Positions 1-44,840 of a DNA stretch of 64,000 nt are shown in pieces. A program made the translations under genes and the position numbers. A model generated the notes under the pieces. The model had not been told where the DNA came from, searched no databases, and saw only the letters and a program-made list of their open reading frames with translations. The number at the start of each line of letters is the position of its first letter. Position 1 is the first letter of the stretch. The stretch is from Paraescarpia echinospica (lineage: Eukaryota; Annelida; Polychaeta; Sabellida; Siboglinidae): assembly GCA_020002185.1 (NCBI GenBank), contig CM034538.1:4357379-4421378 (forward strand), in the 5' to 3' direction.

Positions 1-50
1 ACTGCCTTAGAGACCTTGCTGGGCTTGATGTGTTCAGTCCACATCTCTAG
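1..50 (+). CDS. SYMPK: Symplekin exon 1 of window (3' end; tentative)
   Basis: The frame starting at base 1 reads [16 protein letters not shown] and ends in AG before a donor GTAGGA at 51. The split codon AG|T joins to the exon at 1708 to give HISSVNL, matching vertebrate symplekin just before IARQRP. The same segment is repeated about 22 times downstream, so which copy is the real exon end is uncertain. By analogy with the array after 34299, the most upstream copy is likeliest, and that may lie before the window. Confidence 0.5.
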   Translation, partial: CLRDLAGLDVFSPHL

Positions 51-1432
51 GTAGGAGAGAGAGACTGTCTTAGAGACCTTGCTGGGCTTTATGGGTTCAG
101 TCAACATCTCTAGGTAGGAGAGAGAGAGACTGCCTTAGAGACCTTGCTGGACTTTATGGGTTCAGTCCACATATCTAGGTAAGAGAGAGAGAGACTGACT
201 TAGATACCTTGCTGGGCTTTATGGGTTCAGTCAACATCTCTAGGTAAGAGAGAGAGAGACTGTCTTAGAGACCTTGCTGGGCTTTATGGGTTCAGTCAAC
301 ATATCTAGGTAGGAGAGAGAGAGACTGACTTAGAGACCTTGCTGGGCTTGATTAGTTCAGTCCACATCTCTAGGTAGGACGGAGAGAGAGACTGTCTTAG
401 AGACCTTGCTGGGCTTTATGGGTTCAGTCAACATCTCTAGGTAAGAGAGAGAGACTGTCTTAGAGACCTTGCTGGTCTTTATGGGTTCAGTCAACATCTC
501 TAGGTAGGAGAGAGAGACTGTCTTAGAGACCTTGCTGGGCTTTATGGGTTCAGTCAACATCTCTAGGTAGGAGAGAGAGACTGCCTTAGAGACCTTGCTG
601 GGCTTTATGGGTTCAGTCAACATCTCTAGGTAGGAGAGAGAGACTGTCTTAGAGACCTTGCTGGGCTTTATGGTTTCAGTCCACATCTCTAGGTAAGAGA
701 GAGAGACTGCCTTAGAGACCTTGCTGGGCTTTATGAGTTCAGTCCACATCTCTAGGTAGGAGAGAGAGACTGCCTTAGAGACCTTGCTGGGCTTTATGGT
801 TTCAGTCCACATCTCTAGGTAAGAGAGAGAGACTGCCTTAGAGACCTTGCTGGGCTTTATGGTTTCAGTCCACATCTCTAGGTAAGAGAGAGAGAGAGAC
901 TGCCTTAGAGACCTTGCTGGGCTTTATGAGTTCAGTCCACATCTCTAGGTAGGAGAGAGAGACTGCCTTAGAAACCTTGCTGGGCTTTATGAGTTCAGTC
1001 CACATCTCTAGGTAGGAGAGAGAGACTACCTTAGAGACCTTGCTGGGCTTTATGGGTTCAGTCCACATCTCTAGGTAGGACGGAGAGAGACTGTCTTAGA
1101 GACCTTGCTGGGCTTTATGGTTTCAGTCCACATCTCTAGGTAGGAGAGAGAGACTGTCTTAGAGACCTTGCTGGGCTTTATGAGTTCAGTCCACATCTCT
1201 AGGTAGGAGAGAGAGACTACCTTAGAGACCTTGCTGGGCTTTATGAGTTCAGTCCACATCTCTAGGTAGGAGAGAGAGACTACCTTAGAGACCTTGCTGG
1301 GCTTGATGGGTTCAGTCCACATCTCTAGGTAGGACGGAGAGAGACTGTCTTAGAGACCTTGCTGGGCTTTATGGGTTCAGTCCACATCTCTAGGTTGGAG
1401 AGAGAGACTGCTTTAGAGACCTTGCTGGGCTT
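1..1432. repeat. Donor-type boundary minisatellite, about 63-bp unit, ~22 copies
   Basis: Each unit contains a sequence readable as [16 protein letters not shown], then AG|GTAGGAG, followed by a GA-rich stretch (GAGAGAGAGACTG). Units are therefore copies of the last ~50 bases of the symplekin exon plus its 5' splice site. Units vary by point changes (CCACATCTC or CAACATCTC) and in GA repeat length. A long open frame on the minus strand here is a by-product of the repeats. Confidence 0.9.
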
Positions 1433-4400
1433 TATAGGTTCAGTCAATCTGATGACGTGTACGGGCAGTGTGACATCTGTAGGTTTGTCTTGCAGTGTCA
1501 ACCTGGTGACATGTACGGACAGTGTGACGTCTGTGGTTGTCTTGATGTGTCAACCTGATGACGTGTATGGGCAGTGTGACGTATGTGTGTTTGTCTTGCA
1601 GTGTCAATCTGATGACATGTATGGGCAGTGTGACGTCTGTGTTTGTCTTGCAGTGTCAACCTGATGACGTGTATGGGCAGTGTGACGTCTGTGTGTTTGT
1701 TTTGTAGTGTCAACCTGATGACGTGTATGGGCAGTGTGACGACCATCGCGAGACAACGGCCTCAGTTCATGGCCAGGGTTGTGCAGAGCTTCGAGACACT
1801 ACATGGTAAGTCTATTCATGGCCACATAGCTCCACAGCAGGCCCATTGCCAGAAATAACTTTTGGTCCGTCTTTAATTAATCAGAAGTGTGCCTTTGATC
1901 GAACGGCTTGCATTGAAGCCTTTTGCATCAATCACAGCAATTATTGACCAGTTTAGTTTTTTTAATGAGAAACCTAGTAATTTGAGCCATTTATTTAATT
2001 AATACTGATCCATTCGATGTGTTTCACTGCCAGTTGTGCCAGTGATAGTGATACAGTCTCCCCAGGGCAATGGTCTCCACATAGTCAGCAGCTTGAATCT
2101 CTGTGAGGTTCACTGGTCCTCTGTATGATCACTGGTTCTCTGAAGGGGGTTGCTGGTCCTCGGAAGAGCCATCAGTGGTCTATTACAGTGAACCTGCCTC
2201 CTACACTGTCCAAGTCACAAGTGGTTTATTACAGGGAAACTGCCCCTGTAGTGTCCAAGTCACAAGTGATCTATTACAGTGAACCTGCCCCCTACACTGT
2301 CCAAGTCACAAGTGGTCTATTACAGGGAACCTGCTCCTACATTGTCCAAGTCACAAATGGTCTGTTACTGTGAACCTGCTCCCTACATTGTCCAAGTCAC
2401 AAGTGGTCTGTTACTGTGAACCTGCTCCCTACATTGTCCAAGTCACAAGTGGTCTGTTACTGTGAACCTGCTCCCTACATTGTCCAAGTCACAAGTGGTC
2501 TGTTACAATGAACCTGCCCCCTACACTGTCCAAGTCACAAGTAGTCTGTTACAGTGAATCTGCCCCCCACACTATCCAAGTCACAAGTGGTCTATTACAG
2601 TGAACCTGCCCCCTACACTGTCCAAGTCACAAGTGGTCTGTTACAGTGACCTGCCCCCTACACAGTCCAAGTCACAAGTGGTCTGTTACTGTGAACCTGC
2701 CCCCACACTGTCCAAGTTACAAGTGGTCTGTTACAGTGAACCTGCCCCCTACACTGTCCAAGTCACAAGTGGTCTGTTACAGTGAACCTGCCCCCTACAC
2801 TGTCCAAGTCACAAGTGGCAAGTGTGAGAAAGAACATGAAGCTGCACATGTTGAGTTTGCTGAGACATCCAGCAGCTGTTGACTTCCATGCTCAGATCAC
2901 AACATTGCTCACTGACCTTGGAGCGACCCAGAGTGAAGTAAGTCTGTCAGATTGTGATTTATTATTATTACAAAACATTTCTATAGCACCATATATCCGG
3001 GACCAGCTCGTTCATAGGAGTTTACACACATTATAAAATCTACATGGAATTATAAGAAATATGTAAGAAATATATATATATATATTGGTAAAAATAATAT
3101 ATTAAAATTAAAAAAGGCTATAAAGTAATTAACATGCATGACAGTTTCTAAAATATGAAGGTAATTACAAAAATAGTTATATGTTAAAAATTAATTAAAA
3201 TATATTGTATAATAATTTTTTTTTTAAATTAAGAATAAATGCTGTGTACAAGATTTTTTCAGATGATGAGGGATGTGTTCAGGTGAGGAAGGCTGTGTTT
3301 TCAGGATGTGTTTGCATGATGATTGGTGTGTTTAGGCAATAAGGGATTTGTTCAGGTATGTGTTCAGGTGATGGGGATGTGTTCAGGCAATGAGAGATGT
3401 GTTCAGGTGATGAGGGCAATGCCAAAGGAGGAAGTGAGTCGCAAGAGGAAGGCGGAAGAGAAGCTGCTCGCGGCAAAGAAGGCGAAGGTCCAGCAGCCAG
3501 ATGTAAGTCTCAGGACCACACGGATCTATCATCTCTACATCATACACGGATCTGTCATCAATGTCATAATTGTCATCTATATCATACATGGATTTGTCAT
3601 CAATGTCATAGGATCTGTCATCAGTGTCACACACTGATGTATCATATATATGTCTCATGTGGATCTGTCATCTGTCACACGGATCTGTCAAATATATGTC
3701 ATACTTTGATCTATTATATATGTCTCATGTGGATCTGTTGGTGAGCGATCTTTCAGCTTCATCACACCCACTGTTTGGAATTCACTGATGTCAGTCTGCG
3801 GAATCTCCCTACTCTATCTGACTTTAAATCTTGGTTGAAGATATATCTGTTCCAACAGGCGTTCCTACTAGTCTAAGTGGTCCGTGCTTTCTGTGTGTAC
3901 TTGTACAGTCTACGTTATATATATGTGTGTATGACTGATATGTACCAGCGCAATGAGTTGTTTGCCTAAAAAGATCTGAGCTATGTAAGAGCTATCCATT
4001 ATTATTATTATCTGTGTCACATGTATCTGTCATCTATGTCACATGGATCTGTCATCTATGTCACATGTATCTGTCATCTACATCACATGGATCTGTCATC
4101 TACGTCACATGGAACTGTCATCTATGTCACATGGGTCTGTCATCTACGTTAAATGTATCTGTCATCTATGTCACATGTATCTGTCATATATGTCACATGG
4201 ATCTGTCATCTACGTTACATGGATCTGTCATCTATGTTACATGGATCTGTTATCTGCGTTACATGGATCTGTCATCTATGTCACATGGAACTGCCATCTG
4301 TGTTACATGGATCTGTCATCTACGTTATATGGATCTGTCATCTATGTTACATGGATCTGTTATCTACTTTACATGGATCTGTCATCTATGTTACATGGAT

Positions 4401-7400
4401 CTGTCATCTACTTTACATGGATCTGTCATCTATGTTACATGGATCTGTCATCTACATTACATGGATCTGTCATCTACATTACATGGATCTGTCATCTATG
4501 TCACGTGGATCTGTCATCTATGTTACATGGATCTGTCATCTATGTTACACGGATCTGTTATCTACGTTACATGGATGTGTCATGTATGTTACATGGATCT
4601 GTCATCTACATTATATGGATCTGTCGTCTATGTCACGTGGATCTGTCGTCTATGTCACGTGGATCTGTCATCTCTGTTACATGGATCTGTCATCTATGTT
4701 ACATGGATCTGTTATCTACGTTACAAGGATCTGTCATCTCTGTTACCTGGATCTGTCATCTATGTTACATGGATCTGTTATCTACGTTACATGGATCTGT
4801 CATCTATGTTACATGGATCTGTCATCTATGATACTTGGATCTGTTATCTACTTTACATGGATCTGTCATATATGTTACATGGATCTGTCATCTGCGTTAC
4901 ATGGATCTGTCATATGTGTCACATGGATCTGTCTTCTATGTCACATGGATCTGTCTTCTATGTCACATGGATCTGTTATATATATTACATGGATCTGTCA
5001 TCTATGTCACGTGGAACTGTTATCTATGTTACATTGATCTGTCATCTATGTTACATGGATCTGTCATCTATGTTACATGGATCTGTTATCTACATTACAT
5101 GGATCTGTCATCTATGTTACGTGGATCTGTCATCTATGATACATGGATCTGTTATCTACTTTACATGGATCTGTCATCTGTGTTACATGGATCTGTCATC
5201 TATGTCACATGGATCTGTCTTCTATGTCACATGTATCTTTTATCTATGTCACATGTATCTGTCATCTATGTCACATGGATCTGTCATCTATGTTACATGG
5301 ATCTGTCATCTGCATTACATGGATCTGTCATCTATGTCATGTGGATCTGTCATCTACATTACATGGATCTGTCATCTATGTCACGTGGATCTGTCATCTA
5401 TGTTACATGGATCTGTCATCTATGTTACATGGATCTGTCATCTATGTCACATGATCTATTATCACATGTGGTATAGATTTACCTGTTGACCTTGTACCAG
5501 GCGACGCCATCACGGGAGGAAGATGAAGACTATGGCATGACGCCCTTTGTGGGGCTCGGGGTGTCTGCCCCCAAACCCACCGAGTCCCTCAAACAGACAG
5601 CCATTGACATTTCAGCGGAGGATCTCATCACTCGGCTCACGCCACAGAACGTGGCTGACCTTGTCCTACTCAGCATGGTAAGTCAGTCTGCCCCCTCAGG
5701 CTTCGAAATAAGGCCCGTCCGATCGTCCCGGACGAGTAGTTTCAGTGACTGGATTAGTCCATGTTTAAAGGGGCTCTCCCATCGGACTAGCTGTAATTAT
5801 GTGAATTAATTTACGCTGTATATATGCTAGTTGGGTGTTGTGATGGAATAAAACAAAATATGACAATAAGGTAGCATTTTATCACACGTGGCTAAATATT
5901 CCGTACGACCATCGATTGGGAAACTTGCTGAATGCGGTGAATGTAAATGGCGGCTGTTTACATCTGGTTAACATAGCCATAGGTAGCGTGTTGCAGACAT
6001 CGTTACGTGCTATCCATCGTGATCGTAGTTGCGTTATTCCTGCATCGGGTGATATTTTAGCAAGTTACAAAACACCAGCAATGTTACTGATTGTTCAGTT
6101 GGCTTCGGGAAAGGAACCGCTAATGAAAAGTATATGCCAAATGATGCAACTTAGTCCGACAATGTCGGTCCTTCATCGCAGTCAGGCTTCAAATTGTGGT
6201 GGCATTGTCTTGTCCACCACTGTCATTTGCTGCCCCCTGATTAAACTAGTAATTTCTTCTGATGACTAATGACTTTGCAGTTGGATCCATGAAATCACAT
6301 GTATTTCTTTCTATTAATGACACATTTAGTTGAACATTTAATTGAAATAAGAAATGGCTTGTTTTCTTTATGAAATAAGAGCCACTTTTACTATGTGCCA
6401 TAACTGTCACATATATCACAGTATGATTAATGGTACCTGGCACATTTATTTTTAAGGACTACTAATATCACGACTAGTTGTGTCTGAGTAAGCTAGTCCG
6501 ATGGACTACCTGTCAGCTAAATCCATCATGCACCCTGCCCCCTTGTAGGTGATGTTAAGTGACTCTGCCCCCTTGTAGTTGATGTTAAGTGACTCTCTCC
6601 TCTTGTAGGTGATGTTAAGTGACTCTTCCCCCTTGTAGATGATATTAAGTTAATCTGTCCCCTTATATGTGGTGTTAAGTGATCCTTCCCCCTTGTAAGT
6701 GATGTTAACTCAGTCTGCCCCCTTGTAGTTAATGTTAAGTGACTGCCCCTTGTGTGTGATACTAAGTGACTTTTGCACCTTGTAGGTGATATTAAGTGAC
6801 TCTGCCCACTTATAGGTGATGTTAAGTGACTTTGCCCCCATGTAGGTGATGCTAAGTTATGCCTCCTTGTAGGTGATGCTAAGTGACTATGCCCCGGTGT
6901 AAGTGATGCTAAGTGAGTCTGCTCCCTTGTAGATTATGTTAAGTGAATCTGCCCCCTTGCAGAATATATTAAGTGACTCTGCCCCTTGTATATGATGTTA
7001 AGTTAATCTGCCCCCTTATATATGATGTTAAGTGACTCTGCCCCCTTGTAAGTAATTGTAGTTGATGTTAAATGACTTCCCCCTTGTAGGTGATGCTAAG
7101 TGACTGCCCTCTTGACGGTGATGTTAACTCAATCTGCCCCCTTGTAGATGATGCTAAGTGACTCTGTCCCCTTGTATATGATGTTAATTGACTGTGCCTC
7201 CTTGTAAGTGATGTTAAGTCAGTCTGTCCTCTTGTAGGTGATGTTGCCGGACACAATGCCAGCCCAATTCCAGGCGACCTACACCCCGATAGCGGCGGCG
7301 GGCACACAGGCCCAGATCAAACATCTGTCTCGACTCCTAGCCACCCAACTCACAGCCTCCAACCTCGGCAAGGGATACGCTGAGATACAACAGCAACTGA

Positions 7401-37400: not shown

Positions 37401-40400
37401 AAGCTCTATTACATTTGGGTTCCTTGTGTGGTACGGTGGCCTGAATGTTGTGCATCGCAACACTCTGGCACGAACAGTCAGGGTTAGTGGCAAGGTGATG
37501 GGAGAAAAGTAGACCAGTCTAGAGGTTCTATACAGGCAACGGGCAGAGAGAAAGGGAAGGAATGTCTCCTCAGACCCTGAACGTCCATGTTTCCATGCTA
37601 TAAACTACTTCCTTCTGGTCGCAGCTTTCATCTCCCTCACTGTCAACTAAATCTCACTCGAAACTCATTTGTTCCCTCGTCAATTAGATTAATGAATGAG
37701 TAATTGTCCTTCATTCCCCTCCATCTCTGCCAGTCTGACACTGAGTGAGGCTGAGATGATTTGTGAGATGATTTAACTTTTTTTAACGTTTGTAACTTAT
37801 TTAACATATTGAACTTATTTCACTTATTTTAACTTATTTATTTTTTAAACTGATATAACTTATTACAATTTTTTGTATTGCATGTACATTTGTTTTATTT
37901 GTCTGGTGTCCACAGTAAGTGACTGGTGCCCACAGTAAGTGACTGGTGCCCACAGTAAGTGACTGGTGCTCACAATTATTGTTACTTACCTATTCATAAA
38001 GACTGTCCTAATTCTTAAAATGGTTAAAGGAAATAACAATAAGGCATTAGCTAAAATCCTTTTTCCATGTGTACACAAAGTTTAACATTGTATGTAACAT
38101 TTGACAACATTAAACAAATACAGAAAAATACATTTGTAGCATAAATTCAATTTTAAGCCCGTCTGTGAAGCGATTCCCGCGGAAAATTAAATTTTAATGA
38201 GCTAGGCGATCATGTGGTATCGTGACGTCATTTATGACACACACTGGCATCAGGCCGATCCTTTCCATGCATTCAGAGCATGTTTACAAGTATAGCTTTT
38301 CGGTCGAAACGAGCATCAGAATTAGTTATTGGGCAATATACCGACGTAATATAAACACTAGTCATCATAGAGGAACAAGCAGTTATCTTACGGATCCACA
38401 TGAATCGAATTTTATTCAAAACAACGAATGCGAATGCGTCAACAAGTCGACTACGTTTCGCTGAGCTTGGGCTCGTTTTCAGAATAATTATATCGAATGC
38501 AACCAACGGGAGATAATCTACACCAATAAACATACATAGCAAACAGATATTCTACAGAAAGTAACGTGTATAATCTCATAATATCACTAGAATATTGATA
38601 TATGAAGCAGAAGTTGTACAATTTATCATAACAACTGAAATCAGTCAGAGAGTTTCTGTTGGTGCTGCTAGTTCAGTTGGTAGACGCATTGGTTTCTTGC
38701 CATTTATTTTTACAATCGGGCGACGCCGGTTCAATTCTGACAGCATGCAAACCATTGATTTTCTTTACACTTTTTTTTTTCACGAAGTAATATAAACCAA
38801 ATCATTTAGTATACTATGATGCACTGTTTGTAAATATTTTTTATATTTTTGTAGTAATTATTTATTCGCCACAAAAATTTAAATATGGTCATTACATATA
38901 ACGATGTTTCTAAATTTTATTTATCCAGACAGATCACAATCTGTTTTCACATATATAATTACAATATATTACCGTACAATATATTTACAATTAATAAATT
39001 ATATATCCATTACATTTGTTTGGATAAATAAAATTTAGAAACATCGTTATATAATGACCATATTTTCATTTTTGTGGCGAATAAATAATTACTACAAAAA
39101 TAAAAATAATTTACAAACAGTGTATTATAGTATAAAATGATTTGGTTTATATTACTTCGTGAACACATAAACAAAAAAAGTGTAAAGAAAATCAATGGTT
39201 TGCATGCTGTCAGGATTGAACCGGCGTCGCCCGATTGGAAAATAAATGGCAAGAAACCAATGCGTTTACCAACTGAGCTAGCGGCACCAACAGAAATTCA
39301 CTGACTGATTTAAGTTGTTATGATAAATTGTACAACTCCTGCTTCATATATCGATATTCTAGTGATATTATGAGATTATACACGTTACTTTCTGTAGCTG
39401 GATACAATATTAAAGTTAATGTTAAATTAGCAGAAAATATTGTTACATTTCGTCGTCACCTCAAAACCTATCTTTTCAATATTGCCTATCCTCCCTAGCT
39501 TCCTAGCACATCCATCCATTTGTTGACGAATTTCGCCTAGCACACGAGTACGAGAATGCTTAATCCTTTGGTTTTGGTGCGCCACTGAGCTCGGATTGTC
39601 TGAGGATATTGGCGCTTAAGAAGTTATTTATTATTATTATATATGTTTGCTATGTATGTTTATTGGTGTAGATTATCTCCCATTGGTTGCATTCGATATA
39701 ATTATTCTGAAAACAAGCCCAAGCTCGGCGAAACCTAGTCGACTTGTAGGCCCATTCGCATTCGTTGTTGTGAATAAAATTCGATTCAAGTGGAACCGTA
39801 AGATAACTGTTTGTTCCTCTATGATGACTAGTGTTTATATTACGTCGGAATATTGCCCAATAACTCATTTTGATGCTCGTTTCGACCGAAAAGCTATACT
39901 TGTAAACATGCTCTGAATGCATGGAAAGGGTCGGCCTGCTGCGAGTTTGAGTCATAAGTGATGTCACATCTCGGCATCCCGAAAAGCGCGCCAAAAATAT
40001 GCATATTCGAAAATGTCCGGATGCACAGCATAAAATGTGGAATTTCTAATTCATTTAATTTTGTTGATTTTTTTGGCTTGGTGGACGTGGAAATAGATAG
40101 CAGGATGTAATATAACATGAATTCAAGCAATAGATGTTTTTATTCCCTTTAAGAAAAGTTTCCTATTAAGCATTAAGTGTTGTGCATTTGAAATTGCCTC
40201 CTATCAACCAATTGTGTTGTAGTTGGTTGTAGGACAGTGTGCTGGGGTTGGTTGCAGTACAGTGTGCTGTGGTTGTTTGTAGTACAGTGTGCTGTGGTTG
40301 GTTGTAGTACGGTGTGCTGTGGTTGTTTGTAGTACAATGTGCTGTGGTTGTTTGTAGTACAGTGTGCTGTGGTTGGTTGTAGTACAGTGTGCTGTGGTTG

Positions 40401-41551
40401 GTTGCAGTACAGTGTGCTGTGGTTGTTTGTTGTACAGTGTGCTGTGGTTGGTTGTAGTACAGTGTGCTGTGGTTGGTTGTAGTACAGTGTGTTGTGGTTG
40501 GTTGTAGCACAGTATGCTGGGGTTGGTTGTAGTACAGTGTGCTGTTGTTGATTGTAGCACAGTGTGTTGTGGTTGGTTGTAGGACAGTGTGCTGGGGTTG
40601 GTTGTAGTACAGTGTGCTGTTGTTGATTGTAGCACAGTGTGTTGTAGTTGGTTGTAGGACAGTGTGCTGGGGTTGGTTGCAGTACAGTGTGCTGTGGTTG
40701 TTTGTAGTACAGTGTGCTGTGGTTGGTTGTAGTACGGTGTGCTGTGGTTGTTTGTAGTACAATGTGCTGTGGTTGTTTGTAGTACAGTGTGCTGTGGTTG
40801 GTTGTAGTACAGTGTGCTGTGGTTGGTTGCAGTACAGTGTGCTGTGGTTGTTTGTAGTACAGTGTGCTGTGGTTGGTTGTAGTACAGTGTGCTGTGGTTG
40901 GTTGTAGTACAGTGTGTTGTGGTTGGTTGTAGCACAGTATGCTGGGGTTGGTTGTAGTACAGTGTGCTGTTGTTGATTGTAGCACAGTGTGTTGTGGTTG
41001 GTTGTAGGGCAGTGTGTTGTTGGTTGTAGGACAAGACAGTGGCTACTCGAGTCCTCTCACCCCAGCCGAGCTGCTCATAGCCCTACACTACGTGGACACA
41101 CAAAAGTGTGACATGAAAACAATCATCAAAGGTGAGAGTCCCCTCTAGCCTTGTTTCCTGCGCCTGTGCACACAGTATCATTCAGAGATTCATCTGAGTT
41201 AGTGATACAATTTGTTTATTACACACATTTCTACAGTAAACTATTTTGTGGACTTGGCTGGTGGCTACAAATGAATATAGAAACTCAGTGGGCCAGAACA
41301 CAGAACAAGTATTTTAAAACTAATTTTAATAATATCTAATTATAAACGTGTTCTATGTTGCAGCCACCAACCTGTGTTTTGCCGAGCGCACGGTCTACAC
41401 ACAGGAGGTGCTGGCTGTGGTGATGCAGCACCTGATGGAACAGAGTCCTCTGCCCACCCTCCTCATGAGGACTGTGCTCCAGTCCCTCGCCATGTACCCT
41501 CGCCTCATTGGCTTCGTCATGAACATCATGCAGCGCCTCATCACAAAACAG
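1..41551 (+). CDS. SYMPK: Symplekin gene, overall span of the first copy (22 exon segments, 5' and 3' incomplete)
   Basis: Symplekin is the nuclear scaffold that bridges CPSF and CstF in pre-mRNA 3'-end cleavage and polyadenylation and also serves in histone pre-mRNA processing; in vertebrates it is also found at tight junctions. The exons listed separately (1-50, 1708-1805, 2783-2937 and on to 41364-41551) join with matching phases and no stop into 2382 nt, 794 codons, against about 1270 residues for the vertebrate protein. The first six cover the end of the N-terminal HEAT-repeat region, a basic NLS-like stretch and a linker. The last six or so fall in the conserved symplekin C-terminal domain. 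The start codon and upstream exons lie before the window. The variable C-terminal tail lies after exon 22 and is not seen. Introns range from 229 bp to 10.7 kb and are mostly minisatellite. The span given includes introns. Family assignment is by remembered similarity, without a database search. Confidence 0.93.
1433..1740. repeat. Acceptor-type boundary minisatellite, ~54-bp unit, ~6 copies
   Basis: The unit runs TTTGTCTTGCAG|TGTCAACCTGATGACGTG then TATGGGCAGTGTGACG, i.e. the 3' splice site plus the first ~35 bases of exon 2. The last unit passes into the real exon at 1708. The array begins inside a unit of the upstream donor-type array, around 1440, at a shared CAGTCAA/CAGTGTCAA. Confidence 0.9.
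1708..1805 (+). CDS. SYMPK: Symplekin exon 2 (HEAT region)
   Basis: The acceptor TTTTGTAG ends at 1707 and the donor GTAAGT starts at 1806. It encodes [20 protein letters not shown] and continues through [15 protein letters not shown] and the ETLH end are near-invariant in animal symplekins. Phase: one base completes a split codon at the start and one base is left at the end. The first 35 bases of this exon and its acceptor are copied in the array upstream. Confidence 0.93.
1806..2104. other. Intron sequence without recognisable feature
   Basis: AT-rich, single-copy looking intron between the donor of exon 2 and the next array. No conserved coding frame seen. Confidence 0.6.
2105..2817. repeat. 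Acceptor-type boundary minisatellite, 46-bp unit, ~15 copies
   Basis: Units read GTGAACCTGCCCCCTACACT, GTCCAAGTCACAAGTGG, TCTGTTACA. CTGTTACAG|TGAACCTG is the acceptor of exon 3 plus its first ~35 bases ([12 protein letters not shown]). The last copy is the true exon start. Earlier copies are more degenerate (2110-2230). Confidence 0.92.
2783..2937 (+). CDS. SYMPK: Symplekin exon 3 (HEAT region)
   Basis: The acceptor CTGTTACAG ends at 2782 and the donor GTAAGT starts at 2938. It encodes [20 protein letters not shown], then the helix with [14 protein letters not shown] and [10 protein letters not shown]. This is one of the best conserved stretches of the family (vertebrate NLPPTLAKSQV..SVRKN). 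The exon start and acceptor are repeated about 14 times upstream. Confidence 0.95.
2938..3255. other. AT-rich intron with a SINE/LINE-tail-like fragment
   Basis: 2955-3030 holds TTATTATTATTAC followed by a CTATAGCACC-like stretch. It resembles, in reverse, the 3' tails with GCGCTATAGAAA and (ATT)n seen at 18030 and 39600. The rest is AT-rich with a short TATATA run near 3070. Confidence 0.4.
3260..3415. repeat. Degenerate short repeat at the exon 4 acceptor
   Basis: Irregular units of about 20-25 bp sharing GATGTGTTCAGG(T/C)(G/A)ATG(A/G)G. The last unit supplies the exon 4 acceptor TGTTCAG|GTGATGAGG. It is a further, older-looking acceptor-type array. Confidence 0.65.
3407..3502 (+). CDS. 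SYMPK: Symplekin exon 4 (basic, NLS-like)
   Basis: The acceptor GTGTTCAG ends at 3406 and the donor GTAAGT starts at 3503; both ends are in phase 0 (32 codons). It encodes a lysine/arginine-rich stretch, with RKRKAEE followed by AAKKAKVQ, at the position where vertebrate symplekin has its basic nuclear localisation region (TRKRP...LKKMK). Nuclear import is inferred from the composition. Confidence 0.85.
3505..3735. repeat. 22-bp minisatellite, left part (degenerate)
   Basis: Units related to ATGGATCTGTCATCTATGTC start just after the exon 4 donor and are interrupted by the retrotransposon tail at 3736. Confidence 0.75.
3736..4010 (+). mobile_element. 3' end of a CR1/L2-like non-LTR retrotransposon, truncated
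   Basis: The segment encodes, with one frame break, [14 protein letters not shown] and then [20 protein letters not shown] followed by AFLLV and a stop. This is the typical C-terminal end of LINE ORF2 in the CR1/L2/Rex1 group (the FxxxxPxxWNSLP...FKSxLKxxLF pattern). A ~130-bp tail follows, ending in CATTATTATTATTAT. It is a 5'-truncated dead copy and splits the 22-bp array. Confidence 0.75.
4011..5458. repeat. 22-bp minisatellite, ~65 copies
   Basis: The unit is ATGGATCTGTCATCTATGTT plus AC, with C/T variants (TCAC, TTAC). Because 22 is not a multiple of three and units lack stops, all + frames stay open for hundreds of codons (for instance 4014-5489). These are not genes. The array ends about 45 bp before exon 5 and shows no exon sequence. 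Confidence 0.92.
5501..5677 (+). CDS. SYMPK: Symplekin exon 5 (acidic linker and TPxNVAxLVLxSM block)
   Basis: The acceptor TTGTACCAG ends at 5500 and the donor GTAAGT starts at 5678; phase 0 to 0, 59 codons. An acidic start (REEDEDYG) is followed by a variable linker and then [14 protein letters not shown], which matches the vertebrate LTPDNVANLVLISM block. Confidence 0.93.
5697..6537 (+). mobile_element. Non-autonomous DNA transposon, 841 bp, 6-bp target duplication (hAT-like)
   Basis: The ends are CAGGCTTCGAAATAAGG and ...CATGCACCCTG, giving short inverted termini CAGG(C/G)T. It is flanked by CCCCCT on both sides (5691-5696 and 6538-6543), a 6-bp target-site duplication. A second, reverse-oriented member at 47385-48197 has the same ends and its own 6-bp duplication. 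Repeated subterminal GTCCGATGG/ATCGGACTAG motifs are visible. No transposase is seen; a partly conserved frame near 6000-6265 ([19 protein letters not shown]) has no known function. CAGG ends suggest hAT (perhaps a 6-bp TSD lineage), an inference. Confidence 0.8.
6538..7250. repeat. Acceptor-type boundary minisatellite, ~30-bp GT...AG unit, ~23 copies
   Basis: The unit is GTGATGTTAAGTGACTCTGC then CCCCTTGTAG. It starts with the first bases of exon 6 (GTGATGTT), continues like the exon 5 donor region (AAGTCAGTCTGCCCCC) and ends with the exon 6 acceptor CTTGTAG. Every unit is bounded by GT and AG. The 841-bp transposon sits in the first unit, next to the exon 5 donor. Confidence 0.9.
7238..7408 (+). 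CDS. SYMPK: Symplekin exon 6
   Basis: The acceptor CCTCTTGTAG ends at 7237 and the donor GTGAGG starts at 7409; phase 0 to 0, 57 codons. [17 protein letters not shown] and [19 protein letters not shown] match the vertebrate block around MPASFQAIYTP and AQIKHLARLMATQMTA. The exon opens with GTG, so acceptor and exon together read AG|GTGATG, which also resembles a donor site. The array just upstream repeats this junction. Confidence 0.94.
7475..7846. repeat. 40-bp minisatellite, left fragment (~9 copies)
   Basis: The unit is GTATAAGTCTATCATGTTGT then GCAATCATCTACTCACATAT. It is the same family as 10818-13052. The two parts were one array split by the element at 7847-10817. The left copies are more divergent. 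Confidence 0.92.
7847..10817. mobile_element. DNA transposon, 2971 bp, inverted termini CAGTGTTTGAG, TSD GTTGTG
   Basis: The left end is CAGTGTTTGAGCTAGGG and the right end CTCAAACACTG, a perfect 11-bp terminal inverted repeat. GTTGTG at 7841-7846 and 10818-10823 is a 6-bp target duplication within the 40-bp minisatellite unit. No intact transposase is found. A small frame at 10135-10341 (acidic, DSSDSDTGN) could be a remnant but is not recognised. CAGTG termini suit the hAT superfamily; the 6-bp duplication is unlike the usual 8 bp. It holds a nested repeat (8005-8580) and TA-rich microsatellites near 10570-10740. Confidence 0.78.
8005..8575. repeat. Nested dispersed repeat with two ~125-bp related halves
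   Basis: It begins with an imperfect palindrome, TAGTCCTTTGG...GGTCCAAGGGACTA. Two related segments follow (about 8085-8205 and 8250-8365), each with GTTCAGCAACTTT, CTAATTTTGCATAGA and TTTGTATTTGATTGAATCAT-like blocks. It looks like an older insertion inside the 2971-bp element. Confidence 0.55.
10818..13052. repeat. 40-bp minisatellite, main part, ~56 copies
   Basis: Very homogeneous units (GTATAAGTCTATCATGTTGT plus GCAATCATCTACTCACATAT). Variants cycle between ATCATGTTG, ATCATGTAG and ATTATGTAG in blocks, the sign of recent multi-unit duplications. One unit lacks a few bases near 12505. It lies inside the 10.7-kb intron and is not near a splice site. Confidence 0.95.
13053..13323. other. 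Intron sequence without recognised feature
   Basis: Single-copy looking, AT-rich. No conserved frame. Confidence 0.5.
13324..13596. mobile_element. MITE-like element with ~50-bp terminal inverted repeats
   Basis: The left arm GCTGGATGTACACTGCTAAA, CGTTTGTTGCGAGTCGT is mirrored by the right arm, whose reverse complement begins GCTGGGTATACACTGTAAAA, CGTTTGTTGCGAGTCGT. The whole is 273 bp with no coding capacity. The target duplication is unclear (TAAA near both ends). Confidence 0.7.
13597..14357. other. Intron sequence between MITE and glycosyltransferase gene
   Basis: Contains a pyrimidine-rich stretch (13620-13740) and otherwise AT-rich DNA. Short open frames on both strands are not conserved and not supported. 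Confidence 0.5.
14358..14363 (-). terminator. Poly(A) signal AATAAA of the GT31 gene
   Basis: The + strand reads TTTATT, so the minus strand has the canonical AATAAA 86 bp downstream of the glycosyltransferase stop codon. The spacing is plausible for a short 3'UTR, but the hexamer is common in AT-rich DNA. Confidence 0.4.
14449..15534 (-). CDS. Beta-1,3-galactosyltransferase-like glycosyltransferase (GT31), single exon, nested in a symplekin intron
   Basis: Family GT31 enzymes are Golgi type II membrane proteins that transfer galactose or GlcNAc from the UDP-sugar in a beta-1,3 linkage. The 361-residue frame has a short cytoplasmic start, a membrane anchor at about residues 19-37 ([19 protein letters not shown]) and a lumenal catalytic region. 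GT31 motifs appear in order: RRAIRSSW (101-108), YGDVLQGDF (144-152), the metal-binding triad KTDDD (182-186), [10 protein letters not shown] (236-245) and EDVYTAG (268-274). Nothing essential is missing. Length fits B3GALT/B3GNT proteins (about 310-420). The start is chosen at 15534, with A at -3 and G at +4; a second Met is at residue 7. Odd: a second hydrophobic stretch near the C-terminus (about 338-353). A poly(A) signal AATAAA lies on this strand at 14363-14358, 86 bp past the stop. The sequence CCACACAACCAG, one base before the ATG, could be the acceptor of a 5'UTR intron. It lies antisense to symplekin; substrate and exact subfamily are not determinable here. Confidence 0.9.
   Translation of the reverse strand: MVSALTMCQQYSKWHWRRTVLVVSLLTLAGFMFYMYHYTAMPVYVLDQLNLRPFFLPKIMCEQCNNFSVKYMIANEHACGGVESVYLLILVLSFQPHANARRAIRSSWGGVRTYRGRNIRTVFTFGVHTDVNFNRQVELEQQQYGDVLQGDFAESYSSLTNKTMMALTWTIKYCANAKYILKTDDDSFNVPQRYVDYLIEVTEERFVGGYCFTVFPDRRVSSKYFVSTQTYPDTYFPTYCAGPGYVLSIRAVTELVAVAPNVRYLPMEDVYTAGMCRVAAGIRYVQMTGTVISQDEMTACALATWAKSAHNIVPEDTLRLWEKMVRADRNTDCVGHNLRIFIMFLIAVAVWCKILMNLHYK
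15548..15990. repeat. 20-bp minisatellite just 5' of the glycosyltransferase gene, ~22 copies
   Basis: The unit is ATGTGGATGTCACAGGTCAC, with shorter 12-bp variants (ATGTGGATGTCA) at 15660-15750. It begins about 13 bp upstream of the glycosyltransferase start codon, so it lies in that gene's 5'UTR, promoter or 5'UTR intron. Frames reading HMWMSQ are repeat artefacts. Confidence 0.92.
15991..17275. other. Intron sequence without recognised feature
   Basis: No repeat array or conserved frame seen. It could include the promoter of the antisense glycosyltransferase, but no core element can be defended. Confidence 0.45.
17278..17565. repeat. CA-rich microsatellite with ATGC-rich end
   Basis: (CA)n interspersed with CG and TACA, turning into GCATGCATGAAT repeats at 17480-17545. 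The duplicated block after the gap starts inside this tract (17505 corresponds to 44159). Confidence 0.9.
17930..18080 (+). mobile_element. 3' tail of a CR1/L2-like retrotransposon
   Basis: GCACATCTGAGCTCGGATTC then CTGAGGATAGGCGCTATAGA ending in ATGTATTATTATG. The same tail pattern is at 39580-39640, with a related (ATT)n end at 3955-4010. Only the untranslated end is present. Confidence 0.5.
18111..18186 (+). CDS. SYMPK: Symplekin exon 7 (variable linker)
   Basis: The acceptor TGTGTTTTAG ends at 18110 and the donor GTGGGT starts at 18187. It encodes [20 protein letters not shown] plus IQTVV and leaves one base. The region is poorly conserved in the family; the call rests on phase, splice sites, an unchanged second copy at 44765 and its place between two conserved exons. 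Confidence 0.8.
18187..18415 (+). other. Short intron flanked by a direct repeat AGGTGGGTC
   Basis: The exon 7 end plus donor reads GTAGGTGGGTC and the acceptor plus exon 8 start reads GCAGGTGGGTC. A 9-bp direct repeat therefore spans both splice junctions. Confidence 0.8.
18416..18480 (+). CDS. SYMPK: Symplekin exon 8 (proline-rich linker)
   Basis: The acceptor TGATTGCAG ends at 18415 and the donor GTAAGT starts at 18481. It encodes [20 protein letters not shown] and PS, a linker with little conservation. Its first bases (GTGGGTC) repeat the start of the preceding intron. The 229-bp intron before it is one of the shortest in the gene. Confidence 0.8.
18502..20510. repeat. 53/56-bp minisatellite, ~37 copies
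   Basis: The unit is AATGTTCACACTGATGATGG, TACAGCAACAACCACATCGA, CAAGTACAAC(AAC)TAC, with an optional AAC. It starts about 20 bp after the exon 8 donor. A truncated unit occurs near 18885-18900. The second copy of the locus has a somewhat shorter array (45156-47026). Confidence 0.95.
20511..21467. other. Intron sequence; empty site of an 813-bp transposon
   Basis: AT-rich with no gene. At about 20873 the sequence GCAGTAATAAAGTGCC is the empty target of the transposon present in the second copy at 47385. Confidence 0.75.
21468..21579 (+). CDS. SYMPK: Symplekin exon 9
   Basis: The acceptor GTGTGTAG ends at 21467 and the donor GTGAGT starts at 21580; 37 codons plus one base. [20 protein letters not shown] followed by [12 protein letters not shown] matches the vertebrate segment containing GGRKKIFRLSDV and KRILRAEK, a helical region N-terminal to the second HEAT-like block. 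Confidence 0.93.
21618..22222. repeat. 33-bp minisatellite, ~18 copies
   Basis: The unit is GTTCTACTGGTGTCAACAGA then GACCATGGTAGAT. 33 is divisible by three, so frames remain open on both strands (reading TMVDVLLVS or [10 protein letters not shown]); these are not genes. It continues at 22342-22416 after a short insertion. Confidence 0.93.
22223..22341. mobile_element. Short dispersed repeat inserted in the 33-bp array
   Basis: A-rich start (AAAAAAGTAAAAATTATATA), then GCGCAGTATCCAG and TTCAAAGCGCTTTACAC, a pattern common to SINE or LINE tails of marine invertebrates. It is found at the same place in the second copy (49561-49678), so it is older than the split of the two sequences. Confidence 0.5.
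22483..22569 (+). CDS. SYMPK: Symplekin exon 10
   Basis: The acceptor CCCTCTGCAG ends at 22482 and the donor GTAGGT starts at 22570. Two bases complete a lysine codon, then [20 protein letters not shown] and QFGGQLKD follow. It matches the vertebrate helix with RIKILASLVTQFNSGLK. Confidence 0.92.
22570..23293. other. Intron with a minor GTTGTTCGGCTCATCAAT repeat
   Basis: Mostly unique sequence. At 23090-23260 a degenerate repeat of GTTGTTCAACTCAT/GTTGTTCGGCTCATCAAT precedes the exon; the second copy has one extra unit. No other feature. Confidence 0.6.
23294..23489 (+). CDS. SYMPK: Symplekin exon 11
   Basis: The acceptor ATCTTGAAG ends at 23293 and the donor GTAAGT starts at 23490; 196 nt. 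It encodes [20 protein letters not shown], then [12 protein letters not shown] and [20 protein letters not shown]. The match to vertebrate ARLDLAFAWLYQEYNAYL and [21 protein letters not shown] is strong. The acceptor has an A-rich end (TTGAAG), weaker than usual, but it alone keeps the phase. Confidence 0.94.
23590..23790. repeat. ~37-bp AT-rich repeat, ~5 copies
   Basis: Units of TTATTATGCATGTGGGTCAT followed by TATAAGTATATATATA. Present in both copies of the locus. Confidence 0.8.
23955..27376. repeat. 40/33-bp minisatellite with Pol III A-box-like motif, ~88 copies
   Basis: The unit is GGTAGAGTGGTTAGAGTATC then CAGATGGTGCCATGGTGAAC; a 33-bp variant lacks GTGAACG. TGGTAGAGTGG matches the A-box consensus TRGYNNARNNG, and the wording GTAGAGTGGTTAGAG is tRNA-like; no B box is present. 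Multi-unit blocks recur (24600-25300, 25200-25650, 25600-26050). The second copy has only ~1.45 kb of this array (51313-52762), so the two differ by about 2 kb. Confidence 0.95.
27567..27648 (+). CDS. SYMPK: Symplekin exon 12
   Basis: The acceptor CCCTTTCAG ends at 27566; the donor GTTTGT at 27649 is a weak GT site. It encodes [20 protein letters not shown] and KKYCQDE, matching vertebrate [26 protein letters not shown]. The second copy (52956-53037) differs by one silent change (CTT to CTC at 27627). Confidence 0.94.
27649..27898. other. Intron with TG-rich repeats before exon 13
   Basis: 27735-27890 holds loose repeats of GTTGCAGTCGGTGATGTGT and GTGTGCTGT. No gene. Confidence 0.55.
27899..28012 (+). 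CDS. SYMPK: Symplekin exon 13
   Basis: The acceptor TTGTCTCAG ends at 27898 and the donor GTAAGC starts at 28013; 38 codons in phase 0. [18 protein letters not shown] and the end DFTSHEKND match vertebrate SRTYLGMSTLRDLIFKRP and LSSHEKDK. One silent difference from the second copy (ACG to ACT at 27901). Confidence 0.95.
28013..28520. other. Intron without recognised feature
   Basis: AT-rich unique sequence, nearly identical in the second copy (53402-53911). A 90-codon frame on the minus strand resembles no known protein and is not supported. Confidence 0.6.
28521..28589 (+). CDS. SYMPK: Symplekin exon 14
   Basis: The acceptor TTTGTTCTAG ends at 28520 and the donor GTAATG starts at 28590; 23 codons in phase 0. 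It encodes [20 protein letters not shown] plus PIE, matching vertebrate [23 protein letters not shown]. A 2.6-kb array begins within a few bases of its donor. Confidence 0.9.
28596..31265. repeat. Acceptor-type boundary minisatellite, ~38-bp unit, ~70 copies
   Basis: The unit is CGCTACGCCCTCTACTACTG then TTGCTGTTGTTGTTCCAG. It consists of the exon 15 acceptor (TGTTCCAG) plus the exon's first ~13 bases (CGCTACGCCCTCT). The array fills the intron from 6 bp after the exon 14 donor to the exon 15 acceptor. The 5' half uses CTACACCCTC and GTTACAG variants, the 3' half CTACGCCCTC and GTTCCAG. No stop codons occur, so very long frames (up to 867 codons) appear; these are artefacts. Confidence 0.95.
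31251..31332 (+). CDS. SYMPK: Symplekin exon 15
   Basis: The acceptor TTGTTCCAG ends at 31250 and the donor GTAGGT starts at 31333. It encodes [20 protein letters not shown] and then TPIHVTG, matching vertebrate [21 protein letters not shown]. Its first 13-17 bases with the acceptor make up every unit of the array upstream. The real exon is the last copy: it carries CTCTATTATCTGAAG where array units read CTCTACTACTGTTG. Confidence 0.92.
31647..31740 (+). CDS. SYMPK: Symplekin exon 16
   Basis: The acceptor GATTGTTGCAG ends at 31646 and the donor GTAGGT starts at 31741. It encodes [20 protein letters not shown] and then [11 protein letters not shown], matching vertebrate [26 protein letters not shown]. 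A split glutamate codon GA|G joins the next exon. Confidence 0.95.
31741..32225. other. Intron without recognised feature
   Basis: Unique, AT-rich, with scattered TTGACAGT motifs that prefigure the following array. Confidence 0.5.
32226..33618. repeat. 41-bp minisatellite, ~34 copies
   Basis: The unit is GTGATGTCATTGACACTGAT then GATGTGTATCATGGTTTGACA. It runs to within 16 bp of exon 17 but does not contain exon sequence. The second copy (59200-60600) has the same array with local rearrangements (around 32695 versus 59690). Confidence 0.95.
33628..33697 (+). CDS. SYMPK: Symplekin exon 17
   Basis: The acceptor TTGTTTGCAG ends at 33627 and the donor GTGAGA starts at 33698. It encodes [20 protein letters not shown] and ETP, matching vertebrate [23 protein letters not shown]. 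It lies at the start of the conserved C-terminal domain. Confidence 0.95.
33706..33916. repeat. Short pyrimidine-rich repeat (~10 bp) after exon 17
   Basis: Imperfect repeats of CTGTCCCCTGA directly after the exon 17 donor. Same in the second copy. Confidence 0.8.
33917..34190. other. Intron remainder before exon 18
   Basis: Unique AT-rich sequence. The second copy lacks TGTG near 34100 and TTTGGTG or similar near 34180, small indels close to the acceptor. Confidence 0.5.
34191..34299 (+). CDS. SYMPK: Symplekin exon 18 (C-terminal domain)
   Basis: The acceptor GGTGTTTCAG ends at 34190 and the donor GTACAT starts at 34300. It encodes [20 protein letters not shown] then [16 protein letters not shown], matching vertebrate [28 protein letters not shown]. 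The last 14 bases and the donor are repeated about 59 times downstream. The first copy is taken as the true end because it continues the reading frame. Confidence 0.95.
34286..36290. repeat. Donor-type boundary minisatellite, 34-bp unit, ~59 copies
   Basis: The unit is CCTCACAGACAAAG|GTACATCACT then CTCTTAATGT. CCTCACAGACAAAG is the last 14 bases of exon 18 and GTACAT its donor. Variants CACACACAAAG, CACTGACAAAG and CAGAGACAAAG occur in blocks. It fills the intron nearly to exon 19. The first copy (34286) is the coding one. Confidence 0.95.
36325..36425 (+). CDS. SYMPK: Symplekin exon 19 (C-terminal domain)
   Basis: The acceptor GTGTTCACAG ends at 36324 and the donor GTAAGT starts at 36426. 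It encodes [20 protein letters not shown] and then [13 protein letters not shown], matching vertebrate [25 protein letters not shown]. Confidence 0.95.
36426..37140. other. Intron without recognised feature
   Basis: No array. A 70-codon frame at 36743-36955 (also at 63714) lacks similarity to anything I know and is left uncalled. Confidence 0.6.
37141..37228 (+). CDS. SYMPK: Symplekin exon 20 (C-terminal domain)
   Basis: The acceptor TGTTTCTCAG ends at 37140 and the donor GTAAGT starts at 37229. It encodes [20 protein letters not shown] and then VFNRLLGAH. This is among the most conserved blocks of symplekin (vertebrate [27 protein letters not shown]). Confidence 0.96.
37229..38219. other. 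Intron with a small 21-bp repeat
   Basis: 37904-37978 has four units of CACAGTAAGTGACTGGTGCC plus C, each with a donor-like CAG|TAAGT/AGTAAGTG. The rest is AT-rich single-copy sequence. Confidence 0.6.
38661..38744 (+). repeat. tRNA-like (SINE head) sequence in the left foldback arm
   Basis: TAGTTCAGTTGGTAGACGCA resembles an A box and GCCGGTTCAATTCTG a B box. The anticodon arm is replaced by a T-rich stretch and the acceptor stem does not pair well, so it is a tRNA-derived repeat, not a working tRNA. Confidence 0.6.
39206..39288 (-). repeat. tRNA-like (SINE head) sequence in the right foldback arm
   Basis: On the minus strand GCTAGCTCAGTTGGTAAACG (A box) and CGCCGGTTCAATCCTG (B box) are closer to consensus than in the left arm. 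There is no proper anticodon stem. It could serve as a Pol III promoter reading into the arm; that is an inference. Confidence 0.6.
39397..39642 (+). mobile_element. 3' end of a CR1/L2-like retrotransposon inserted in the foldback arm
   Basis: It encodes [20 protein letters not shown] then a stop, like the C-terminal end of LINE ORF2 (FRxxLKTxLF). An untranslated tail GAGCTCGGATTGTCTGAGGA, then TTGGCGCTTAAGAAG and (TTATTA)n follows. The left arm lacks it, which fixes its borders. Confidence 0.7.
40213..41029. repeat. Acceptor-type boundary minisatellite, 25-bp unit, ~33 copies
   Basis: The unit is GTACAGTGTGCTGTGGTTGG then TTGTA. Units with TTGGTTGTAG|GACAGTG reproduce the exon 21 acceptor (TTGGTTGTAG|GACAAGACAGTG) except for a short gap. 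Minus-strand frames (QPQHTVL repeats) are artefacts. Confidence 0.9.
41030..41131 (+). CDS. SYMPK: Symplekin exon 21 (C-terminal domain)
   Basis: The acceptor TTGGTTGTAG ends at 41029 and the donor GTGAGA starts at 41132. It encodes [20 protein letters not shown] then [13 protein letters not shown], matching vertebrate [27 protein letters not shown]. A 25-bp array of near copies of the acceptor runs up to it. Confidence 0.94.
41364..41551 (+). CDS. SYMPK: Symplekin exon 22 (C-terminal domain, last exon seen)
   Basis: The acceptor TATGTTGCAG ends at 41363. It encodes [20 protein letters not shown], then [20 protein letters not shown] and [20 protein letters not shown] ending TKQ. The match to vertebrate [31 protein letters not shown] is near complete. 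The end is set by conservation (MKQ|VWKYPK in vertebrates). The donor GTCGGC at 41552 is weak and is repeated in the 31-bp array that runs into the assembly gap. The exon encoding VWKYPK and the rest is not in the window. Confidence 0.93.
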
Positions 41552-43158
41552 GTCGGCTGTGTTTAGTCTTGGTGCAGAGTAGGTCGGCTGTGTTGAGTCT
41601 TGGTACAGAGTAGGTTGGCTGTGTTAAGTCTTGGTACAGAGTAGGTGGGCAGTGTTAAATCTTGGTACAGAGTAGGTCGGCTTGGTTAAGTCTTGGTACA
41701 GAGTAGGTGGGCAGTGTTAAGTCTTGGTACAGAGTAGGTGGGCTGTGTTAAGTCTTGGTACAGAGTAGGTGGGCAGTGTTAAATCTTGGTACAGAGTAGG
41801 TCGGCTGTGTTAAGTCTTGGTACAGAGTAGGTTGGCTGTGTTAAGTCTTGGTACAGAGTAGGTTGGCTGTGTTAAGTCTTGGTACAGAGTAGGTGGGCAG
41901 TGTTAAATCTTGGTACAGAGTAGGTCGGCTGTGTTAAGTCTTGATACAGAGTAGGTCGGCTGTGTTAAATCTTGGTACAGAGTAGGTCGGCTGTGTTAAG
42001 TCTTGGTACAGAGTAGGTCGTCTGTGTTAAGTCTTGGTACAGAGTAGGTTGGCTGTGTTAAGTCTTGGTACAGAGTAGGTGGGCAGTATTAAATCTTGGT
42101 ACAGAGTAGGTCGGCTGTGTTAAGTCTTGATACAGAGTAGGTCGGCTGTGTTAAGTCTTGGTACAGAGTAGGTCGGCTGTGTTAAGTCTTGGTACAGAGT
42201 AGGTCGGCTGTGTTGAGTCTTGGTACAGAGTAGGTGGGCAGTGTTAAGTCTTGGTACAGAGTAGGTCGGCTGTGTTAAGTCTTGGTACAGAGTAGGTGGG
42301 CAGTGTTAAGTCTTGGTACAGAATAGGCCGGCTGTGTTGAGTCTTGGTACAGAGTAGGTCGGCTGTGTTGAGTCTTGGTACAGAGTAGGTCGGCTGTGTT
42401 GAGTCTTGGTACAGAGTAGGTGGGCAGTGTTAAGTCTTGGTACAGAGTAGGTTGGCTGTGTTAAGTCTTGGTACAGAGTAGGTCGGCTGTGTTGAGTCTT
42501 CGTACAGAGTAGGTCGGCTGTGTTGAGTCTTGGTACAGAGTAGGTGGGCAGTGTTAAGTCTTGGTACAGAGTAGGTCGGCTGTGTTAAGTCTTGGTACAG
42601 AGTAGGTCGGCTGTGTTGAGTCTTCGTACAGAGTAGGTCGGCTGTGTTGAGTCTTGGTACAGAGTAGGTGGGCAGTGTTAAGTCTTGGTACAGAGTAGGT
42701 CGGCTGTGTTAAGTCTTGGTACAGAGTAGGTCGGCTTGGTTAAGTCTTGGTACAGAGTAGGTGGGCAGTGTTAAGTCTTGGTACAGAATAGGCCGGCTGT
42801 GTTGAGTCTTGGTACAGAGTAGGTGGGCAGTGTTAAGTCTTGGTACAGAGTAGGTCGGCTGTGTTAAGTCTTGGTACAGAGTATGTCGGCTTGGTTAAGT
42901 CTTGGTACAGAGTAGGTGGGCAGTGTTAAGTCTTGGTACAGAATAGGCCGGCTGTGTTGAGTCTTGGTACAGAGTAGGTGGGCAGTGTTAAGTCTTGGTA
43001 CAGAGTAGGTCGGCTGTGTTAAGTCTTGGTACAGAGTAGGTCGGCTTGGTTAAGTCTTGGTACAGAGTAGGTGGGCAGTGTTAAGTCTTGGTACAGAGTA
43101 GGTCGGCTGCGTTAAGTCTTGGTACAGAGTAGGTCGGCTGTGTTAAGTCTTGGTACAG
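41552..43158. repeat. Donor-side boundary minisatellite, 31-bp unit, ~52 copies, cut by the gap
   Basis: The unit is GTCGGCTGTGTTAAGTCTTG then GTACAGAGTAG. GTCGGCTGTGTT is the intron start right after exon 22 and CAG|GTCGGC or TAG|GTCGGC recurs in every unit. Variants have GTGGGCAGTG or GTTGGCTGTG. The array is interrupted by the N run, so its real length is unknown. Confidence 0.93.
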
Positions 43159-44158: not shown

Positions 44159-44764
44159 CGCATGAATACATGCATGCATGAATGCATGCATGAATGCACG
44201 CACACACATACACACAGTAACTCGTTTATAGTTAGATGCAATTGGCGTGAATACGTTTATTTAAAAACAAAATTGACAAATATTTCAGATATAAACGTTA
44301 AATAATAAATGTTACAGATATAAACATCTTAGAATCCCCAATGAGTGTCAACAGGCCATCAACCAGGGTCTTGCCATGGATGGCAATCTTGTTTAAAACA
44401 ACTCTGTCAGGATTACAGAGACTTTGAAAGACACCTTGCATCAGTGTGTTTGTGTGTACATGGCTACGTGCTTATGTATGTGGATGCTTGTATGTGTGTG
44501 TGTGTCGGTGTGTGTTTGTCTGTATGTTTGTGCATACTCATGTGTAAAATAACCCAAGACTTATTTGTTTGAAATCACATTCCCACTCTAAACCTTTAGC
44601 ATTCCCTTGTTCTAATGATGGCTCTTGTGCGTCCTTGCTCATGATTTTGCCTTGCGATTCTTGTATGCTGCACATCTGAGCTCGGATTCCTGAGGATAGG
44701 CGCTATAGAAAATGTATTATTATGTATGTGAACTAACATATCCATGCTTGCGTCTGTGTTTTAG

Positions 44765-44840
44765 CAAACTGCACAGCAAGCCGAGGAAGATGACGCAGAA
44801 GTTGGAACCTCACCCAAACACGTCATCCAGACTGTCGTAG
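44765..44840 (+). CDS. SYMPK: Symplekin exon 7, second copy
   Basis: Identical protein segment ([13 protein letters not shown]...) and splice sites (TTTTAG, GTGGGT) as 18111-18186. Confidence 0.78.

Follow-up and report, generated by a model that had tools for sequence, protein, structure and literature searches.

Exon structure of the symplekin gene

The window, by which we mean the whole stretch of 64,000 nucleotides analyzed (C8:4357379-4421378 within a 1.08-Gb assembly), contains a gene that we identify as symplekin from the similarity of its predicted product to the human protein. Joining 28 exons at GT/AG sites, 21 wholly within the window and seven upstream of it (L002), gave a single open frame of 993 amino acids; exon edges were set by the uninterrupted reading frame together with alignment to human symplekin. 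The model for the window part, 794 amino acids in length, matched human symplekin from residue 2 to 794 (E 1.6e-259). This first model took window positions 1-50 as an exon, and the preliminary description of the locus likewise placed an exon end at 50, but this sequence is an array copy, and the true exon end is at -653 (L002 9346, C8:4356725), outside the window. The symplekin exons range from 54 to 196 bp, with a median intron length of 724 bp. Those wholly within the window are the following.

1708-1805, 2783-2937, 3407-3502, 5501-5677, 7238-7408, 18111-18186 and 18416-18480, + strand: symplekin exons 1-7 of the window, in one open frame
21468-21579, 22483-22569, 23294-23489, 27567-27648, 27899-28012, 28521-28589 and 31251-31332, + strand: symplekin exons 8-14 of the window, in one open frame
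31647-31740, 33628-33697, 34191-34299, 36325-36425, 37141-37228, 41030-41131 and 41364-41551, + strand: symplekin exons 15-21 of the window, in one open frame

For the final symplekin exons, after 41552, no tblastn match (E 0.01) was obtained to ~70 kb beyond the window end; these exons may lie in the assembly gap or elsewhere in the assembly. A galactosyltransferase ORF (14455-15558, - strand; Pfam PF01762, E 9.4e-40) is nested in a 10.7-kb symplekin intron.

Tandem arrays copy exon edges in nine symplekin introns

Tandem arrays with a TRF score of at least 80 and a period of at least 9 were scored in the 27 closed symplekin introns. Placement counts use only arrays reaching this score and, in symplekin, do not include the one that follows 41551 in an open intron. 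Ten of the 30 arrays, spread over nine introns, overlap an exon by 8-53 bp. The donors copied are those at -3773, -1613, -653, 23489 and 34299, and the acceptors those at 1708, 2783, 3407, 7238 and 31251. The arrays in or reaching into the window, together with two that adjoin an exon, are listed here.

1-1445, + strand, extending left to -705: 63-bp array, 53 exon bp plus the start of the donor
1443-1741, + strand: 54-bp array, acceptor plus 34 bp of the exon beginning at 1708
2174-2818, + strand: 46-bp array, acceptor plus 36 bp of the exon beginning at 2783
3250-3414, + strand (TRF span 3358-3414): degenerate ~20-bp array, acceptor plus 8 bp of the exon beginning at 3407
6535-7245, + strand: 30-bp array, acceptor plus 8 bp of the exon beginning at 7238
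23450-23575, + strand: 55-bp array of 2.3 copies, 40 exon bp plus the donor at 23489
28594-31264, + strand: 38-bp array, acceptor plus 14 bp of the exon beginning at 31251, 72 units scored
34285-36287, + strand: 34-bp array, 15 exon bp plus the donor at 34299, 58 units scored
40213-41033, + strand: 25-bp array adjoining the acceptor at 41030, sharing 4 exon bp
41550-43158, + strand: 31-bp array beginning at the donor at 41551, sharing 2 exon bp and running into an assembly gap

Upstream of the window, the units of the -3773 array (42 bp) and the -1613 array (34 bp) include 15 and 17 exon bp, respectively.

The preliminary description had proposed that arrays in at least eight introns are copies of splice junctions, each with its own sequence, and had named nine such junctions. 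TRF arrays are present at all of the named places, the arrays are indeed junction copies with individual sequences, and seven of the nine junctions stand: 1708, 2783, 31251, 34299, 7238, the 63-bp array, which does copy an exon end plus donor, and 3407, which had been put forward with a hedge. Exon copying is not established for the acceptor at 41030 or the exon end at 41551, given the 4 and 2 exon bp shared, and the 41551 array was in any case kept out of the count since it lies in an open intron. Three junctions had been overlooked, 23489 within the window and -3773 and -1613 outside it, so that the number of introns with junction-copy arrays is seven in or reaching into the window and nine in the part of the gene that was read.

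Some of these introns consist of little else. In the intron before 1708, the donor-copy array adjoins the acceptor-copy array with zero unique bases between them, and the intron before 31251 is nearly all array, with 86 bp of unique sequence. Arrays account for 52% of the symplekin span and for 33% of the span of the clathrin heavy chain gene described below. By eye, unit lengths have no evident preference for multiples of three, and the extra copy in the 23489 array has GC in place of GT. A 22-bp stretch at the donor end (5675-5696), three bases of which are exonic, is similar to the 30-bp unit in the 6535-7245 array on the acceptor side of the same intron, such that one short unit holds both intron ends.

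Since the exons encode a conserved protein, we regard the array as having been copied from the exon. In searches of the 1.08-Gb assembly, which skip very common words, the 63-bp symplekin unit gave a single location, as did an 85-bp clathrin unit. Thus, both of the two units tested look like local copies and not dispersed satellites, and with both restricted to their own locus, a dispersed satellite landing at exons was ruled out as a source.

A second copy of part of the locus differs in array length

The window also contains a second version of part of the gene.

44159-64000, + strand: second copy of 17505-37029, on a contig between two 1000-N gaps

From sequence comparison, this contig is most likely the other allele. 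The unique intron DNA of the two copies differs by 0.57% substitutions over 4774 aligned columns, and the 13 exons differ at two of 1257 bases, with splice dinucleotides intact. Two arrays differ markedly in TRF span: an intronic 40-bp array occupies 23958-27376 (3419 bp) in one copy and 51314-52761 (1448 bp) in the other, and the junction array at 31251 occupies 28594-31264 (2671 bp) and 53985-58237 (4253 bp). The remaining pairs are of similar length (2003 and 2004 bp for the junction array at 34299, 126 and 126 bp for that at 23489, and 2009 and 1871, 606 and 607, and 1403 and 1411 bp for other arrays), and the case for length instability therefore rests on two arrays. The duplication of symplekin exons in 44159-64000 is also a trap for annotation.

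The two 1000-N gaps and the duplicated contig point to local assembly trouble, which raises the question of whether the arrays are themselves an assembly artefact. We regard this as extremely improbable given that both copies of 17505-37029 bear the arrays at 23489, 31251 and 34299 with exons and splice sites intact, and that the same structure is found on another scaffold.

Junction-copying arrays are found in other genes

Three other genes were sampled. Exons of the clathrin heavy chain gene (CLTC, on C9) were located by tblastn with the human sequence, giving a model of 27 exons with an open frame of 1440 amino acids; residues 1-170 and those after 1610 of the human query are outside it. 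Six of its 18 arrays overlap an exon, by 8-22 bp. The second gene was sampled because its exons were recognised in the DNA flanking the window.

C8, - strand, ~21-29 kb upstream of the window start: S28-type, PRSS16-like gene in which three arrays copy junctions

Its sequence matches that of PRSS16, and we take it to be an S28-like gene on this basis. Three of its five arrays overlap an exon (by 43, 36 and 22 bp), and its frame is without stops when the innermost splice sites are joined. The third, a piece of POLR2A comprising 10 exons, has an open frame of 676 amino acids from the innermost splice sites; none of its four arrays overlaps an exon, the nearest ending 5 bp before an exon start.

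Over the four genes, 19 of 57 arrays overlap an exon by at least 8 bp, and such arrays are present in three of the four. Junction-copy arrays are thus not special to symplekin but are found in at least two other genes of the genome. The preliminary description had singled out their density in one gene as the notable point, a view that does not hold with two of the three other genes also carrying them. In all four genes, joining the innermost sites gives open frames, indicating that the genuine boundary is the copy beside the exon.

Placement of arrays relative to exon edges

We compared the observed overlaps with a null that places founding units, at their observed lengths, with equal probability anywhere in the present unique intron sequence plus the edges. 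For symplekin at an 8-bp cut, 10 overlaps were observed and 6.2 expected (P = 0.03), with 6.7 expected at a 5-bp cut (10 observed, P = 0.06) and 5.6 at a 12-bp cut (eight observed, P = 0.12). At the 8-bp cut, six were observed and 1.3 expected for CLTC (P = 0.0008), three and 1.5 for the S28-like gene (P = 0.15), and zero and 0.37 for the POLR2A piece. Pooling the four genes gave 19 of 57 versus 9.4 expected at 8 bp (P = 0.00016), 19 versus 10.1 at 5 bp (P = 0.0006) and 14 versus 8.4 at 12 bp (P = 0.014); without symplekin, the pooled values at 8 bp were nine versus 3.2 (P = 0.001). The pooled overlap, about twice the uniform expectation, disfavours purely random placement in introns of the present unique length. 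The earlier statement that recurrence at so many sites is not due to chance is weak as an argument from symplekin alone and was set aside in that form. The symplekin and CLTC counts equal the chance expectation if the effective founding introns had ~100-150 bp of unique sequence.

As a view of placement that does not depend on TRF, we counted edges with repeated 24-mers among 124 edges of symplekin, CLTC and the POLR2A piece (the S28-like gene is not in this set). On the exon side, there were zero such edges at 60 bp inside (one at -72) and five at -12, followed by 15 at the junction, 17 at +12, 21 at +24 and 31 at +60, with 25-35 deeper in the intron out to +300. Across these 124 edges of three genes, coverage climbs on passing from the exon into the intron and does not peak at the junction itself. 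Starts of arrays concentrate in the final ~12 bp of exon sequence, a bin that was noticed post hoc, in which the count of repeated edges goes up by 10, versus 16 over the first 60 intron bp. We also asked on which side of the edge arrays end, limiting each test to arrays with a period above the tested distance. Within 20 bp of an edge, 11 ends are inside the exon and three outside (P = 0.03); the test was not significant at 30 bp (eight inside, five outside, P = 0.29) or at 40 bp (eight inside, three outside, P = 0.11).

One interpretation of these numbers is that minisatellites arise preferentially at splice junctions, which would act as mutational hot spots, with duplications tending to start ~8-17 bp inside exons, for example due to co-transcriptional R-loops, the step in composition between exon and intron, or microhomology at the splice consensus. 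The pooled excess, the asymmetry of array ends within 20 bp and the jump of 10 repeated edges in the -12 to 0 bin all speak for it, and if it were true, a sizeable share of intron growth would consist of copies of exon edges. We nevertheless consider it rather unlikely, as the asymmetry loses significance at 30 and 40 bp, coverage has no maximum at the junction, the symplekin signal taken alone fades from P = 0.03 to 0.12 at the 12-bp cut, the excess in both symplekin and CLTC would vanish with founding introns of ~100-150 bp, and no overlap is seen among the four arrays of the POLR2A piece. A mechanism targeting splice junctions is possible, but, contrary to the preliminary description, recurrence does not establish one; short founding introns would account for the symplekin and CLTC counts, and the profile lacks a junction peak. 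The data allow a modest real preference for the exon edge, which is unneeded if founding introns were short. What the placement makes clear is that junction-copy arrays are tolerated.

Alternatively, the arrays could be relics of introns gained when an exonic AGGT segment was duplicated in tandem (a Rogers-type model). This would fit the introns that are almost entirely array, and the donor and acceptor ends are alike in three of the 62 introns compared in symplekin, CLTC and the POLR2A piece, the S28-like gene not being in this set (scores of 31, 29 and 23, where the 99th percentile for mismatched pairs is 20). The other 59 introns have no excess similarity between their ends, which rules out intron gain as a general explanation, and the repeat units examined contain intronic sequence absent from the flanking exons. 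As the source of these arrays, it appears quite improbable.

Decoy splice sites are largely intact

As the preliminary description had stated, the arrays carry many decoy splice sites. Among 404 units at 19 edges, agreement with the consensus was 92.8% (749/807) in splice-dinucleotide columns and 94.6% in other columns; in the same units, it was 94.2% in exonic and 95.0% in intronic columns. The 58 mismatches in 807 splice-dinucleotide positions compare with ~44 expected from the other columns, and since these columns are slightly less intact, weak selection against decoys may operate. Decoy erosion by strong selection is ruled out by dinucleotide integrity near that of other columns; the decoys are neither strongly purged nor maintained. 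In individual arrays, all decoys can be intact, as for 32/32 GTs along the whole 63-bp array at -653 and 41/41 sites at CLTC 23465. The least intact are those at 7238 (G of AG, 65%), 2783 (A of AG, 69%) and S28 6604 (G of GT, 70%), and in the three-unit -3773 array, the T of GT is at 50%.

With a 20-mer junction probe for 16 edges (a set without the S28-like gene), AG or GT was kept by 287 of 318 near copies, and 235 of these 287 score as high as the true site with a simple matrix entered by hand. Use of a decoy would bring intron sequence into the transcript; in the 63-bp array, reading the frame from the sequence, AG running into GTAG gives AGG TAG, a stop. Dozens of intact look-alikes beside true exon edges are apparently ignored by the cell.

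Hundreds of intact decoys, most of them scoring as high as the true site, could suggest that the arrays are functional and kept by selection, competing for splicing factors or tuning inclusion or retention. This seems highly improbable, given that conservation is no higher in splice dinucleotides than in other columns, nor in exonic than in intronic columns, and that one junction array differs by 1.6 kb between near-identical copies.

Where exons are short and introns long, splice sites are paired across the exon (exon definition). The explanation we favour, and consider probable, is that these mirage-type arrays stem from random founding duplications that are tolerated as the exon-proximal copy is used through exon definition. 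A short stretch across an exon edge would be tandemly duplicated, with founding duplications landing roughly at random within introns and near them, in a region very rich in minisatellites, and the array would then expand and contract like other minisatellites. The gene would stay functional by using only the copy beside the exon body: with sites paired across the exon, established splicing knowledge suggests that, among equivalent sites, the one giving the smallest exon would win. If arrays grow only outward into the intron, the genuine edge always gives the smallest exon.

At each copied exon edge, up to tens of near-identical splice sites stand in series and a single one would be expected to yield the normal protein, which makes the edge a natural experiment. 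The choice among equal splice sites (exon versus intron definition, order of transcription) thereby becomes directly testable. The arrays also illustrate how introns can grow in minisatellite-rich genomes while the genes stay intact, and they call for caution when genes are annotated or short reads mapped in genomes of this kind.

Comparison with known boundary-spanning repeats

The "mirage" minisatellites of amphioxus, which the preliminary description had mentioned, are in print (PMC3087553; PMC3902484). According to these reports, they occur in the globin genes BflGb6 and BflGb9, Adh3, troponin C and PGBD5 as tandem repeats across the exon-intron boundary, at donors or acceptors, with AG/GT decoys; the copy number of the BflGb6 mirage varies between haplotypes, and RNA evidence of normal splicing is reported. 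A mirage-based model of intron gain has been proposed for the amphioxus globins (PMC3087553). By sequence, the arrays described here appear to be mirage-type minisatellites as known from amphioxus, here denser and longer. As in amphioxus, the repeat units span the exon-intron boundary and array length differs between copies (2671 versus 4253 bp at 31251, for what are presumably alleles). Unlike the mirages in those accounts, they reach ~72 units and kilobase lengths at 19 junctions in three of four genes, and some introns are almost nothing but array. Normal splicing across the amphioxus mirages is reportedly backed by RNA, whereas the present arrays are known from genomic sequence. In searches of the assembly (1.08 Gb, with a 69-Mb scaffold), C1q gave at least two matches, COX1 gave none, and the molluscan haemocyanin beta-sandwich gave none, in a search where control genomes gave no match either. 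The genome size and the low C1q count would speak against a lancelet. Should the host prove not to be one, mirage arrays would not be confined to lancelets.

Other systems share single features with these arrays. Human segmental duplications contain variable internal tandem repeats at exon-intron boundaries (PMC2812944) and so likewise have minisatellites at this position, but those repeats may create novel introns or alter recent paralogs, while the present arrays are in a conserved gene with an apparently unchanged protein. Intron gain by tandem duplication (PMC4974935) similarly involves tandem duplication of splice-site sequence, but the present introns need not be new, 59 of 62 being without end similarity. 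The earthworm metallothionein genes have intronic minisatellites (PMC12783039), again large arrays in an intron of an animal gene, with exon-edge copying by their units left unstated in the accessible part of that report. Among titles and abstract openings, a scope outside which most subscription journals fall, no exon-edge arrays were recognised beyond those of PMC3087553, PMC3902484 and PMC2812944.

Other repeats in the window

Two further repeats were noted. The same 40-bp unit is found in two separate arrays, 7483-7848 and 10818-13052, 3 kb apart in one intron. A long imperfect inverted repeat, detected by eye at 38200-39900, is probably a mobile element.
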